This document shows, piece by piece, positions 3,137-43,246 of a DNA stretch of 44,640 nt. A program made the translations under genes and the position numbers. The notes below the pieces were generated by a model. The model had not been told where the DNA came from. It searched no databases and saw only the letters and a program-made list of their open reading frames with translations. Position 1 is the first letter of the stretch. Each line of letters opens with the position of its first letter. Source of the DNA: a virus; IMG/VR virus record IMGVR_UViG_3300048123_000070, positions 1-44,640 of that record; one strand, written 5' to 3'.

Positions 3137-3553
3137 TCATGCCGCCCTGCGGCGACCTTTGATCCGTGAGCAGACAGCAGCGCGACGCCGGCTGCCATTG
3201 CGCTTGGCTCGGTTCTGTACCTCTGTTGGCATGCTGGCGATTCGCCGGTACACGCTTTGAACCGAGACCCTTTTCCCGATGCGGGCCAAGTGCTCAGCGA
3301 CTTGAGGCACCGTCATCAAGCTGGCCTCGAGACAATCGACGATGATGGTGTCGATCTCTGGCCAGTCGTCTCGCCGGTTCCAGAAGCTGGCAGGCCGGGC
3401 TTTGGATAGGCCAATGCGCTGAATGGCGCCGCGCACAGACAACAGTTCCCGCTGCATCTCGTCAGCGATGTCTTCGTCATGCCAGCCCGCCAGCACCAGG
3501 CGCTCGAGCATGTCGAGATCCTCGCGAGGCCAGCGGTGGTATTTGCGTGGCAT
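3137..3553 (-). CDS. Probable helix-turn-helix DNA-binding protein (138 aa)
   Basis: Start MPRKYHRWP at 3553 with GGGAGG upstream. Residues 4-55 resemble a Myb/SANT- or GcrA-like module (WPREDLDMLERLVLAGWHDEDIA...) and a second helix-turn-helix-like stretch lies around 75-105 (MTVPQVAEHLARIGKRVSVQSVYRRI). The C-terminus is very basic (RNGSRRRAAVCSRIKGRRRAA), fitting nucleic-acid binding. It is separated from its upstream neighbour by an intrinsic terminator. It is probably an early regulator, but the target is unknown. Confidence 0.75.
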   Translation of the reverse strand: MPRKYHRWPREDLDMLERLVLAGWHDEDIADEMQRELLSVRGAIQRIGLSKARPASFWNRRDDWPEIDTIIVDCLEASLMTVPQVAEHLARIGKRVSVQSVYRRIASMPTEVQNRAKRNGSRRRAAVCSRIKGRRRAA

Positions 3554-6143: not shown

Positions 6144-6746
6144 TCACTCCGATACGGCTAGGGCCGGATGACGTTGCGGCGGGGCGAAAACGATTCCGTG
6201 ACGAGACGTGAAGCCAAAATCAAGGCGCGCCTCCATTACAGCCATGGCCGCTTCGTCAATTTCTCCAAAAATTCCGAGATGGATTTTTTTCCTATTTACG
6301 CGAACATGGGCTGCCCATTTGTTATATTTGGCCAAAAAGAAAACGCCAGTAACCCCGCTTGTATTATTTTTAAGCATCCTGACGTTCTTTGAGTTCTCTT
6401 TTGCTGAGACTGATCTAAGGTTTTCCCATCTATTATCAGTGGGATCTCCGTTAATATGATCAATGTGCGAACCGGCTTCTTCACCAGTCACCATTTTCCA
6501 AATAACTCTGTGCTCATGCAGATAGCGACCGAAAATATTTATTTTCCGACACCTATACCCTGCCTGGGAGGTCCACAGACCTCCCGCCCTTTTTCCAACC
6601 CATCTTGTATTTCTTGAGCGCAAGTGATGGCCGCACCTCCCTTCCGGGGCGGGCCTCTCCCTCCAAATCAGCGCCCCTGTCGAAGGGTCGTAATCTAGGA
6701 TTTCAAGAAGAGATTTCTGGCTGGGAGTGGGAAGAGCTTTAAACAT
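6144..6746 (-). CDS. HNH homing-type endonuclease with AP2-like C-terminus
   Basis: About 200 residues from MFKALPTPSQ (6746), preferred because GGAG lies at proper spacing; an ATG two codons earlier is too close. Seen in order: an N-terminal segment with LLEILDYDPSTGALIWRERP, the HNH core LHEHRVIWKMVTGEEAG then HIDHINGDPTDNRWENLR, and a C-terminal AP2-like DNA-binding part with SGVTGVFF, KWAAHVRVNRKKIHLG. This matches free-standing phage HNH endonucleases. The gene is clearly lower in GC than its neighbours, supporting recent gain as a selfish element. Confidence 0.9.
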   Translation of the reverse strand: MFKALPTPSQKSLLEILDYDPSTGALIWRERPAPEGRCGHHLRSRNTRWVGKRAGGLWTSQAGYRCRKINIFGRYLHEHRVIWKMVTGEEAGSHIDHINGDPTDNRWENLRSVSAKENSKNVRMLKNNTSGVTGVFFLAKYNKWAAHVRVNRKKIHLGIFGEIDEAAMAVMEARLDFGFTSRHGIVFAPPQRHPALAVSE

Positions 6747-6948
6747 AACCATTCTCCGGACTATTGCTATCAACCTCCGCATCGATACCAACCAGTAGGG
6801 ATAGTTCGTAAAGCGCAAGATCAAACTGGGCAGCAAATTCGACACCTCTTTCTTCATCGCCAGATGCAAAGCACTCCCAGTGCTTGGAGTTGGCAAGAAG
6901 AAGTCGCTGCAACAGTTCAGCCGGAACTTGAACAAGCCGTTCGCTCAT
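6739..6948 (-). CDS. Hypothetical early protein (69 aa)
   Basis: MSERLVQVPAELLQRLLLAN starts at 6948 with GGAGG upstream and overlaps the HNH start by 8 bp. Acidic and helical, with no clear domain. It lies just after an intrinsic terminator, so it should be expressed only by read-through or antitermination from PL unless a promoter lies in the gap above. Confidence 0.68.
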   Translation of the reverse strand: MSERLVQVPAELLQRLLLANSKHWECFASGDEERGVEFAAQFDLALYELSLLVGIDAEVDSNSPENGYV

Positions 6949-8030: not shown

Positions 8031-8059
8031 AATTTAAGCATGCTGAAATGAATCGTCAA
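8031..8059 (-). promoter_or_regulatory. Promoter PL (leftward early)
   Basis: Minus strand TTGACG (8059-8054), 17-bp spacer, TAAATT (8036-8031). It is overlapped by two repressor operators (8033-8048 and 8058-8073) and directed towards the left early operon. Confidence 0.8.
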
Positions 8060-8093
8060 GCAGAATGCTTAAAGAAATTTCAGTTTACTGAAA
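8033..8093. promoter_or_regulatory. Left operators OL1-OL3
   Basis: Three 16-bp near-palindromes fit TTT(A/C)AG-N4-CT(G/T)AAA: TTTAAGCATGCTGAAA at 8033-8048, AAGCAGAATGCTTAAA at 8058-8073, and TTTCAGTTTACTGAAA at 8078-8093. Centre spacings are 25 and 20 bp. The same sequences recur between cI and cro. Confidence 0.82.
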
Positions 8094-8103
8094 CATCAGG
8101 CGC

Positions 8104-8134
8104 AAAAAAGCCCGCTCGGGGCGGGCGATTTTTT
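8104..8134. terminator. Terminator after cI (bidirectional)
   Basis: GCCCGC-TCGGG-GCGGGC is flanked by A6 on the left and T6 on the right, so it can act in both directions. It ends the cI transcript and separates it from PL. Confidence 0.85.
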
Positions 8135-8149
8135 AGTGCTGTTAAAGGT

Positions 8150-8848
8150 TTACGCGAAGACTTCCCACCAGAAGACCCGGCCAATGATTTTTGGCGCGTC
8201 AGGGTCGCTGATGCTGTACGTCTCTTCTGGATACTCGATCTGGTTGTCGCTCACCACGCGCATTCGGTTGAGCGGCGCGCGGTACAGTCGCTTCACTCGC
8301 AGCATGCCCCCGTGATCCAGGGCGTATATCTGACCATCAACAATGTGCGTGGTGCCTTTGTCGATGCCGATGGGCGAGCCATCCATGATCACCGGTTCCA
8401 TTGACGTGCCGGTAAGCGTGGCGCAGGCAGCATTATGGGGCTGGACACCGGCTCGAGCCAGGCGCGCCAGACTGAATTTCATGTACTGCCCATGGTTTTC
8501 AATGACCTGGGTGCGGCCGTCTCCGGCAGCCATCTCCACCTCCCTGAAGAACGGGATCTCGATCTCGTCGGGCGCCAAGGGCGCATCGTCCTCGACAATC
8601 TCGGTCTCATGGAACTCCAGCTCATCCTTGGGGCGCCCATGCATCAGCCCCTTCCCCTCGACGAGCCAGGTGTAGGACACGCCCGTAGCGCGAGCGAGCT
8701 TCAGCAGCTTCTCGGCTTTTGGCGCCTTGGTTTCGCCGCTCAGCCACTGGGTGACGGCGGACGGGCTGACCTGGCATCGCTTGGCAATCGCGCTCTTGGA
8801 CTGCCCGCTGTGCTCGATGGCCTGACGGATTCTGTCGCTGATGTTCAT
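8150..8848 (-). CDS. cI: S24/LexA-type phage repressor (CI)
   Basis: A 232-residue lysogeny repressor. Residues 2-65 form an XRE helix-turn-helix (SKSAIAKRCQVSPSAVTQWL); residues about 98-232 form the LexA/S24 dimerisation and self-cleavage domain. The cleavage bond Ala108-Gly109 (EMAAGDG), Ser149 (GTSMEP) and Lys186 (LRVKRL) are all present, so induction through RecA-stimulated self-cleavage is expected. The start at 8848 fits the family; no ribosome site is seen and the ATG abuts operator OR3, so the message from its maintenance promoter may be leaderless as in lambda. It lies opposite cro and faces the shared operator region. Confidence 0.94.
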   Translation of the reverse strand: MNISDRIRQAIEHSGQSKSAIAKRCQVSPSAVTQWLSGETKAPKAEKLLKLARATGVSYTWLVEGKGLMHGRPKDELEFHETEIVEDDAPLAPDEIEIPFFREVEMAAGDGRTQVIENHGQYMKFSLARLARAGVQPHNAACATLTGTSMEPVIMDGSPIGIDKGTTHIVDGQIYALDHGGMLRVKRLYRAPLNRMRVVSDNQIEYPEETYSISDPDAPKIIGRVFWWEVFA

Positions 8849-8911
8849 TTTAGCGAGCTTAAACCCATCGCCTTTCAGTATGCTTGCGGAAAGCACTTCA
8901 GCATGCTTAAA
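8848..8911. promoter_or_regulatory. Right operators OR1-OR3
   Basis: Three copies of the same 16-bp site: TTTTAGCGAGCTTAAA (8848-8863, abutting the cI start codon), TTTCAGTATGCTTGCG (8873-8888), and CTTCAGCATGCTTAAA (8896-8911, on the PR -10). Centre spacings are 25 and 23 bp. Confidence 0.82.
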
Positions 8912-8913
8912 TT
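8884..8913 (+). promoter_or_regulatory. Promoter PR (rightward early)
   Basis: TTGCGG (8884-8889) and TTAAAT or TAAATT (8907-8913), spacer 17-18 bp. The predicted start is about 10 bases before the CAGGAGG ribosome site of cro. Two operators cover the -35 and -10. Confidence 0.72.
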
Positions 8914-8933: not shown

Positions 8934-9110
8934 ATGACTACCGCAGACGCAATCAAGTATTTCGGCGGCAAGAAGATCGACCTGGCTCGAGCCATCGGAG
9001 TTTCCCCCTCAGCGATCACCCAGTGGGGTGAGGACGTTCCTACTCTCCGCCAGTACCAGATTGAGCGGTTGAGCAAGGGGAAGTTGAAGGCCCGGCCCAG
9101 TGCCGCCTAA
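8934..9110 (+). CDS. cro: Cro-like transcriptional repressor
   Basis: A 58-residue Cro-type protein: MTTADAIKYFGGKKIDLARA, then the helix-turn-helix IGVSPSAITQWGE at about residues 21-33 and a basic tail. It is the first gene of the rightward operon, with CAGGAGG just before the ATG. It is expected to bind the six shared operators and block cI synthesis during lytic growth. Confidence 0.9.
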   Translation: MTTADAIKYFGGKKIDLARAIGVSPSAITQWGEDVPTLRQYQIERLSKGKLKARPSAA

Positions 9111-9174: not shown

Positions 9175-9621
9175 ATGGATTTATATACAGAAGGCATGAG
9201 GCAGGTGGTCAAGGAGCGCGGGTTCGCCACTGTGGCCCGCGGCCTGAAGATGGACGACTCCCGCCTGCACAAAAAAGTCGATCCGGACTACCCCGTCCGC
9301 CTGACCCTCGACGACTTCATCAAGATCGCCGTACTGACCAAAGATGCCCGTTGCCTGAGCGAGATCCTGGCTGACATGGAGCTGATGGCGGTTCCTGCCG
9401 ACAAGCCGGGCGACGACGCATCCCTGTGCGACCGGATCATCCACCAGCAGGTGGCAGTGGGCAACGTTGCCCAAGAGGTTCAGGCCGCGCTGGCAGACGG
9501 GAAGGTTGACGCCAATGAGGCGTGGGCCATCGACCGTGCTGTCGACGTAGCCATCGAGAAGCTGTGCGCGCTGCGCAGCGAGTTGAAGGAAATGGCCGAG
9601 CCGAGACTGGCCAAGGCCTAA
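9175..9621 (+). CDS. CII-like phage regulatory protein (CP76 family)
   Basis: A 148-residue protein similar to the phage regulatory CII/CP76 family: MDLYTEGMRQVVKERGFATV, a helix-turn-helix-like region at about 20-40 (LKMDDSRLHKKVDP), DDFIKIAVLTKDAR near 50, and a helical C-terminal half. GGGAG lies before the ATG. Its place directly after cro matches a lysogeny-establishment activator acting on repressor or integrase promoters. The CII assignment rests on family resemblance and position. Confidence 0.78.
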   Translation: MDLYTEGMRQVVKERGFATVARGLKMDDSRLHKKVDPDYPVRLTLDDFIKIAVLTKDARCLSEILADMELMAVPADKPGDDASLCDRIIHQQVAVGNVAQEVQAALADGKVDANEAWAIDRAVDVAIEKLCALRSELKEMAEPRLAKA

Positions 9622-42214: not shown

Positions 42215-43246
42215 TCAATGCCTTACGCTACCTAGTCCCTCGACACCCTCCTCTCTGGTCGCAATTTGGTCGCAAAGCTTCGGCAACCTGCCAGCCACTT
42301 GATCCAAGCGCGAGTCGAACATATGCGCGTACCGGCTGGTCACCACCAAGCTGCTGTGGCCAAGTAGCGCCTGCACCGTCGTCATCACCTCCCCCGCCTC
42401 AGCCAGCAGGCTGGCGTAGGTGTGGCGAAGGTCATGAAAGCGCAGATCATCACGCTTTATAGCCCGCCGGGCAGCTTCAAACGCCTTACGCAATTGATGA
42501 GCGTCAGATGCAAACGGCAGGTTGGCCACCAATGCCGCACCATCCTCCGGCAGCGGCACGACCCTGGCCTTGCCACTCTTGGTCTGCCCTGGTCGCAACA
42601 CGATGCGACCACCCTGGATGTTGCCAGGGTCCAGCGACAGGAGTTCGCCGCGGCGCAGTCCCGTCAAAGCAGCCAGCGTGATGATTCGCCGCTCCTCCGG
42701 ATACTCTTCCGGCACAGCCTCAACCAAACGCCGAATATCCCCTGCGGTCAGGTAGACGTGGCGCTCGTTTTTCGGGGTGGGCTTGCGCAGCTTGCCGTCC
42801 AGCGGCTGATCCAGCCAATCCCACTCCCGATACGCCAGGCTCAGAACTCGCTTGACCACCTGGGTCCGGTTGTTGATTGTGCTTTGGCTGAGCCGCTTCC
42901 TACGCATATCCTTCTGCATCGACCGGGCTGCATCCAACACCTCTTGACCAAGAGGCACGTCTTGCGCGTTCTCGTCGAACCAGCGGGCAACTGCACGAAT
43001 GCTCGCGCCCTGGCTGTTCGTGTCGTACTCGTCGACCCAGCGCAGAAGACCCTCCATGAAGGTCCTCCGCTCCTGCCGGCCCATGAGGCCATTGAACTGA
43101 GCCTCGTTTAGTTCAGCCTCTCGCTTCGTGGCGAACTGCCTTGCTTCCTTTTCCGTGATAAACGTTCGCTGATATCTGCCGCGCTCACCCGACTCGGTGA
43201 CGACCCACCTGTTCCGAGATGCGCGGTATCGAACCGTGATACCCAT
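42215..43246 (-). CDS. int: Tyrosine integrase
   Basis: A 343-residue phage integrase. An arm-binding N-terminal domain (about 1-55, MGITVRYRASRNRWVVTESG), an SAM-like core-binding domain (about 60-155) and the catalytic domain are seen, with Arg198 (TGLRRGEL), a Lys near 223-226, His271/Arg274 (HDLRHTYAS), His297 (LGHSSL) and the nucleophile Tyr306 (SRYAHMF). The 3' end contains the second 19-bp repeat. It recombines attP with the tRNA-Leu gene. Confidence 0.95.
   Translation of the reverse strand: MGITVRYRASRNRWVVTESGERGRYQRTFITEKEARQFATKREAELNEAQFNGLMGRQERRTFMEGLLRWVDEYDTNSQGASIRAVARWFDENAQDVPLGQEVLDAARSMQKDMRRKRLSQSTINNRTQVVKRVLSLAYREWDWLDQPLDGKLRKPTPKNERHVYLTAGDIRRLVEAVPEEYPEERRIITLAALTGLRRGELLSLDPGNIQGGRIVLRPGQTKSGKARVVPLPEDGAALVANLPFASDAHQLRKAFEAARRAIKRDDLRFHDLRHTYASLLAEAGEVMTTVQALLGHSSLVVTSRYAHMFDSRLDQVAGRLPKLCDQIATREEGVEGLGSVRH
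42256..42274 (+). repeat. 19-bp direct repeat, copy 2 (inside the int 3' end)
   Basis: An exact copy of 42029-42047, 227 bp away, on the other side of the attP core. Confidence 0.7.

Follow-up and report, generated by a model that had tools for sequence, protein, structure and literature searches.

Predicted left and right operators of a P22-like immunity switch flank the repressor gene of a temperate Halomonas-type phage

The window analyzed here, a 44,640-base IMG/VR virus record with an integrase at 42314-42754, carries two clusters of 16-bp palindromes that flank the gene of a CI prophage repressor, and these sites very probably serve a temperate Halomonas-type phage as the left (OL) and right (OR) operators in a lysis-lysogeny switch of the lambda/P22 type (Table 1). 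Each cluster consists of two good palindromes and one half-good site. The left sites are located downstream of cI and over the leftward promoter PL, and the right sites are located between cI and cro, over PR; the TTAAAT −10 elements of the two promoters overlap the best left site and the best right site, as the preliminary description of this DNA had proposed. Judged from the sequence, the switch is of the lambda/P22 type and its specificity resides in the CI N-terminal domain together with the operators. By the same measure, the operator type is not new but already known from P22, a phage of Salmonella, and from numerous prophages of Pseudomonas. An immunity assignment is reasonable as a prediction, but for a type that is not unique.

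Table 1 Features of the predicted switch region (window coordinates) and palindromes found around cI in relatives with a different repressor N-terminal domain
Feature	Location	Strand	Basis and remarks
PL promoter	8032-8059	-	Sequence; TTGACG (8059-8054), 16-nt spacer, TTAAAT (8037-8032)
OL1, strong operator TTTAAGCATGCTGAAA	8033-8048		0 mismatches; overlaps PL −10
OL2, weak operator AAGCAGAATGCTTAAA	8058-8073		3 mismatches; single perfect half-site (CTTAAA); alone not significant
OL3, strong operator TTTCAGTTTACTGAAA	8078-8093		0 mismatches; 28.3 bits
Bidirectional terminator-like hairpin between cI and OL	8110-8126		Terminator scan, both strands; T tracts on both strands
cI, prophage repressor, 232 aa	8150-8848	-	Pfam, HTH_3 and Peptidase_S24; recognition helix VSPSAVTQW
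OR3, operator TTTTAGCGAGCTTAAA	8848-8863		1 mismatch; 17.0 bits; abuts cI start codon
PRM promoter, proposed	8858-8886	-	−10 TTTAAG within OR3; position inferred from annotated P22 PRM
OR2, weak operator TTTCAGTATGCTTGCG	8873-8888		3 mismatches; left half good, right half over PR −35
PR promoter	8884-8912	+	Sequence; TTGCGG (8884-8889), 17-nt spacer, TTAAAT (8907-8912)
OR1, strong operator CTTCAGCATGCTTAAA	8896-8911		1 mismatch; 27.3 bits; overlaps PR −10
cro, 58 aa, P22_Cro family (PF14549)	8934-9110	+	Pfam, E 7e-23; recognition helix VSPSAITQW
CII-like regulator, Phage_CP76	9175-9621	+	Pfam, E 7e-21
Swapped palindrome ACAAG-N5-CTTGT	L006, L097
Swapped palindrome ATAGG-N4-CCTAT	L098, L106
Swapped palindrome TTAGC-N5-GCTAA	L103, L104
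Swapped palindrome TTACC-N4-GGTAA	L105

All six sequences listed in the preliminary description were found at their positions when the window was checked directly. Compared with the consensus TTTMAGNNNNCTKAAA, the sites at 8033 and 8078 have no mismatch and those at 8848 and 8896 have one; the claim that all six sites fit the consensus thus held for these four, while 8058 and 8873 have three mismatches each, with one perfect half-site in each. Within two mismatches, the window contains seven matches against 1.7 expected, a number reached in none of 100 shuffles, and matches with at most one mismatch number four against ~0.33 expected. Matches with three mismatches, in contrast, occur at the chance level (14 against ~17 expected), and therefore 8058 and 8873 are not claimable from the consensus alone; neither of the two reaches significance by itself. 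A weight matrix built from 93 sites, all from contigs of other phages, ranks 8033, 8078, 8896 and 8848 as the four best matches in the window. OL1 is the top match with 32.1 bits, followed by OL3 (28.3), OR1 (27.3) and OR3 (17.0), whereas the null maximum over 20 simulated windows was 12.5; three of the four are far above chance. From these mismatch counts and matrix scores, we rejected a chance origin for the four sites. The strongest sites were also described as near-reverse complements of each other, and 8033 indeed matches the reverse complement of 8896 at 15 of 16 positions. The centre-to-centre spacing is 25 and 20 bp in the left cluster and 25 and 23 bp in the right one.

Two further operator-like sequences were noticed in the window. 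One, TTTAAGCATCCTGACG at 6369-6384, is isolated ~1.6 kb to the left of PL, is identical to OL1 at 14 of 16 positions and could be due to chance; it was left out of the operator set because it is far from the switch and its score (12.6 bits) is at the null maximum. The other, TTTTAGTGCTGTTAAA at 8131-8146, is flanked by the terminator hairpin and the stop codon of cI. It has two mismatches, and one in the 92%-identical L027, but was not counted as a fourth OL site because it is absent in L028, L029, L031 and L020.

In the window, cro is followed by the CP76 regulator, a T5orf172/MUG113-domain protein, replication protein O and DnaB, and the closest solved relative of the window Cro is P22 Cro (1rzs, E 1.2e-6). 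A scan with the promoter consensus called PL with a 17-nt spacer and only PL reached its threshold, PR falling below; PR and PRM are both weak matches. The site at 8848 touches the start codon of cI at its first base, and a cI transcript from the proposed PRM would be near-leaderless. The terminator-like hairpin is found in most relatives. On the minus strand at 6144-6770, we also observed an HNH endonuclease gene with a weak AP2-domain match, beside a comparatively AT-rich stretch; the gene resembles a homing-type endonuclease insertion into the early region transcribed leftward.

Both OL1 and OR1, along with the overlapping promoter hexamers, are conserved in L027, L028, L029, L031 and PAShipCat1; in the alignment OL1 is also conserved in L020, and OR1 across all aligned relatives. 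The −35 and −10 elements of PL are conserved among relatives, and L028 and L029 also preserve PR. OL1 and OL3 are separated by 44-46 bp in nearly all relatives; for the outer OR sites the separation is either 48 or 56-57 bp. OR3 is at the same position in L028 and L029. The middle sites retain one half-site at the same offsets: the OL2 half-site is kept at an equal distance from the PL −35 in L028, L029 and L043, and in the same three OR2 is conserved as TTWMAGNATGCTTGCG or near it. The right half of OR2 may be degenerate because it overlaps the PR −35 element (TTGCGG).

A scan of viral contigs on DNA alone, requiring a pair of sites at 24-36 bp, yielded 50 contigs, and a CI or Cro relative adjoins the paired sites in 44 of these. 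In most of these contigs, CI and Cro alike contain SA[VI]T[QM]W helices. A few contigs with only TTTAAG-N4-CTTAAA carry other helices (SSPAVTNW, SSSAVTLW and AGGAISQW), indicating that helix and operator do not pair in a strict one-to-one manner. When loci were collected by protein similarity only, the matrix detected paired sites in all seven distinct loci with an S[AS][VI][TS]QW helix and in 0 of 39 loci with other helices, where the effective number is smaller because the helix class was defined after the data were seen, many of the 39 loci are closely related to one another and the repressor identification is uncertain in a few of them; the separation is still complete. The CI and Cro helices covary across relatives. 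In three loci (L067 355-587, L082 3739-3971 and L043 3643-3900), the operator pairs are only ~110-135 bp apart; cro is present but a full-length cI cannot fit between the pairs, and most of the repressor gene may have been lost there naturally.

Among the closest relatives of the region is a prophage of Halomonas litopenaei SYSU ZJ2214 (L021/L095; also L005), in which the CI protein is 100% identical, the OL and OR core sites are identical and the DNA is 92% identical over 1.4 kb, with largely different flanks. Exact matches to the sites occur only twice in the 4.8-Mb H. litopenaei genome, both in OL of this prophage, and among 275 host-family genomes the exact paired-site pattern was found only in H. 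litopenaei. This pattern is stringent, since L096, from the same genus, has operators with mismatches; L096 retains both the helix and the operator type of the window. CI relatives are present in 10 of 90 genomes of the genus, and most of them have a C-terminal domain ~60-80% identical to that of the window CI, but their N-terminal domains are unrelated to it and the palindromes on either side of cI differ (Table 1). Some of these palindromes are only modestly above shuffled controls, the clearest being ACAAG in the metagenomic viral contig L006 (score 16 against at most 6). In L006, the ACAAG-N5-CTTGT set is found at 2366-2449 and 3305-3360, flanking cI. The exchange of the HTH together with the palindromes, and the retention of both in L096, provide the best evidence that the HTH domain reads the sites. 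A precedent is phage epsilon34, in which the C-terminal domain is conserved but the N-terminal domain and the putative operators both differ (PMC2629481). The operators and the repressor HTH very likely set the window phage apart from those relatives, which are predicted to be heteroimmune.

That the sites are chance AT-rich palindromes or belong to a host regulator is extremely improbable. Although one further fairly good match is present at 6369 (far from the switch), such an origin is at odds with the mismatch and matrix statistics, the conservation with fixed spacing, the co-occurrence with CI and Cro and the absence of exact matches elsewhere in the H. litopenaei genome. It is conceivable, though we doubt it, that only OL1, OL3, OR3 and OR1 are true operators and that 8058 and 8873 are chance half-matches or the −35 context of the promoters. 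The three mismatches in each, the chance rate of such matches and their matrix ranks in the window (8th and 9th) are what this would predict, but perfect half-sites have chance probabilities of ~0.04 and ~0.02 in the respective gaps, their positions are conserved in relatives and the 20-25 bp spacing is that expected for cooperating dimers.

In the switch that we favor, with both middle sites included as weak operators, CI dimers would bind the predicted operators through the SPSAVTQW recognition helix and, by analogy with lambda and P22, would pair cooperatively inside a cluster and perhaps loop the ~815 bp between clusters. CI covering the −10 elements would turn off PL and PR, and CI on the right operator may support its own promoter PRM, with its −10 in OR3, as in lambda and P22. 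Cro, with a nearly identical helix, would bind the same sites, OR3 first, and thereby stop cI. The S24 motifs of CI (EMAAGDG, TSMEP and RVKRLY) are compatible with self-cleavage, which upon SOS induction would release the prophage. Immunity specificity would then follow from the CI/Cro helix paired with the half-site TTTMAG, a pairing that may be exchangeable independently of the CI C-terminal domain. Hall and colleagues, as cited in PMC4997575, predicted contacts between Cro recognition-helix residues and operator half-sites in lambdoid phages. In phiKO2, Cro binds only OR3 and CB binds all five operators (PMC4997575), so shared binding by CI and Cro is not to be assumed here. An arrangement as in phiKO2 and PY54, with CI on all sites, Cro on one or few, and a lambda-like layout without lambda-like operation, is nevertheless unlikely for the window phage: the precedent in phiKO2 is a demonstrated one (PMC4997575), but the helices of CI (VSPSAVTQW) and Cro (VSPSAITQW) are nearly identical and covary across relatives.

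For poorly studied Halomonas phages, the region provides an immunity assignment in which the window phage is predicted to be homoimmune with the H. litopenaei prophage and heteroimmune with relatives that differ in the HTH while sharing the CI C-terminal domain. The preliminary description had predicted a distinct immunity type, and this stands, as a prediction, with respect to lambda and some Halomonas relatives, but not with respect to Pseudomonas-type prophages and the H. litopenaei prophage, with which the operator consensus and the helix class are shared. The loci collected here are a compact natural data set linking the recognition helices of repressor and Cro to operator half-sites outside enterobacteria. 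As a speculation that we would not expect to hold, the TTTMAG/SA[VI]TQW pairing might be common to so many Halomonas, Pseudomonas and P22-like phages that operators would be recognized across genera by phages whose repressor C-terminal domains are unrelated, and immunity types within Halomonas prophages might arise when the CI N-terminal domain, cro and operators are exchanged as one cassette while the C-terminal domain stays constant.

The lambda OL/OR layout has three plus three sites, with CI between the clusters and PL and PR overlapped. The arrangement in the window is lambda-like, as the preliminary description had noted, with two strong sites and one half-degenerate site in each cluster and with the promoters overlapped; its Cro is in the P22 family, and lambda operators are unlike those of the window in sequence and length. 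The annotated putative operators of phage D3 (ATGGG-type) are unrelated to the window sites, and a near-identity DNA search of named phages with the immunity region of L040 found none. N15, a relative of phiKO2, has a Cro with a P22-Cro-like fold (PMC4997575). The Pseudomonas phages PAShipCat1, vB_Pae_LC3I3 and BUCT566 and their prophage relatives share the operator consensus and the OL layout with the window; the CI of this group is 45% identical over its length, with the helix APSAVTQW in PAShipCat1 and LC3I3. They differ in host genus and in the distance between the outer OR sites (56 bp against 48), and PAShipCat1 has an Ant antirepressor gene downstream of cro.

The P22 immC region (c2, cro and OL/OR) has several features in common with the window. 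Shared are the half-site TTTAAG with N4 spacing, operators flanking the repressor gene on both sides, OR3 abutting the repressor start codon, a PRM (proposed in the window) within OR, outer OR sites 48 bp apart, a PL with TTGAC, a 16-nt spacer and TTAAAT, and a P22_Cro-family Cro divergent from a c2/CI-type HTH repressor. P22 operators, which are of the TTTAAG type, reach 17-24 bits when the matrix of the present family is applied, and the window sites at 8032 and 8895 have one mismatch each to the P22 18-mer. In contrast to P22, the middle sites of the window are half-degenerate, the OL spacing differs, position 4 of the 16-mer can be A or C where most P22 sites have A, and full-length CI shows only weak similarity to P22 c2 (alignment score 77). 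Based on the P22_Cro-family Cro, the TTTAAG half-site and the OR3 abutting the start codon, the closest model for this switch is P22 immC rather than lambda.
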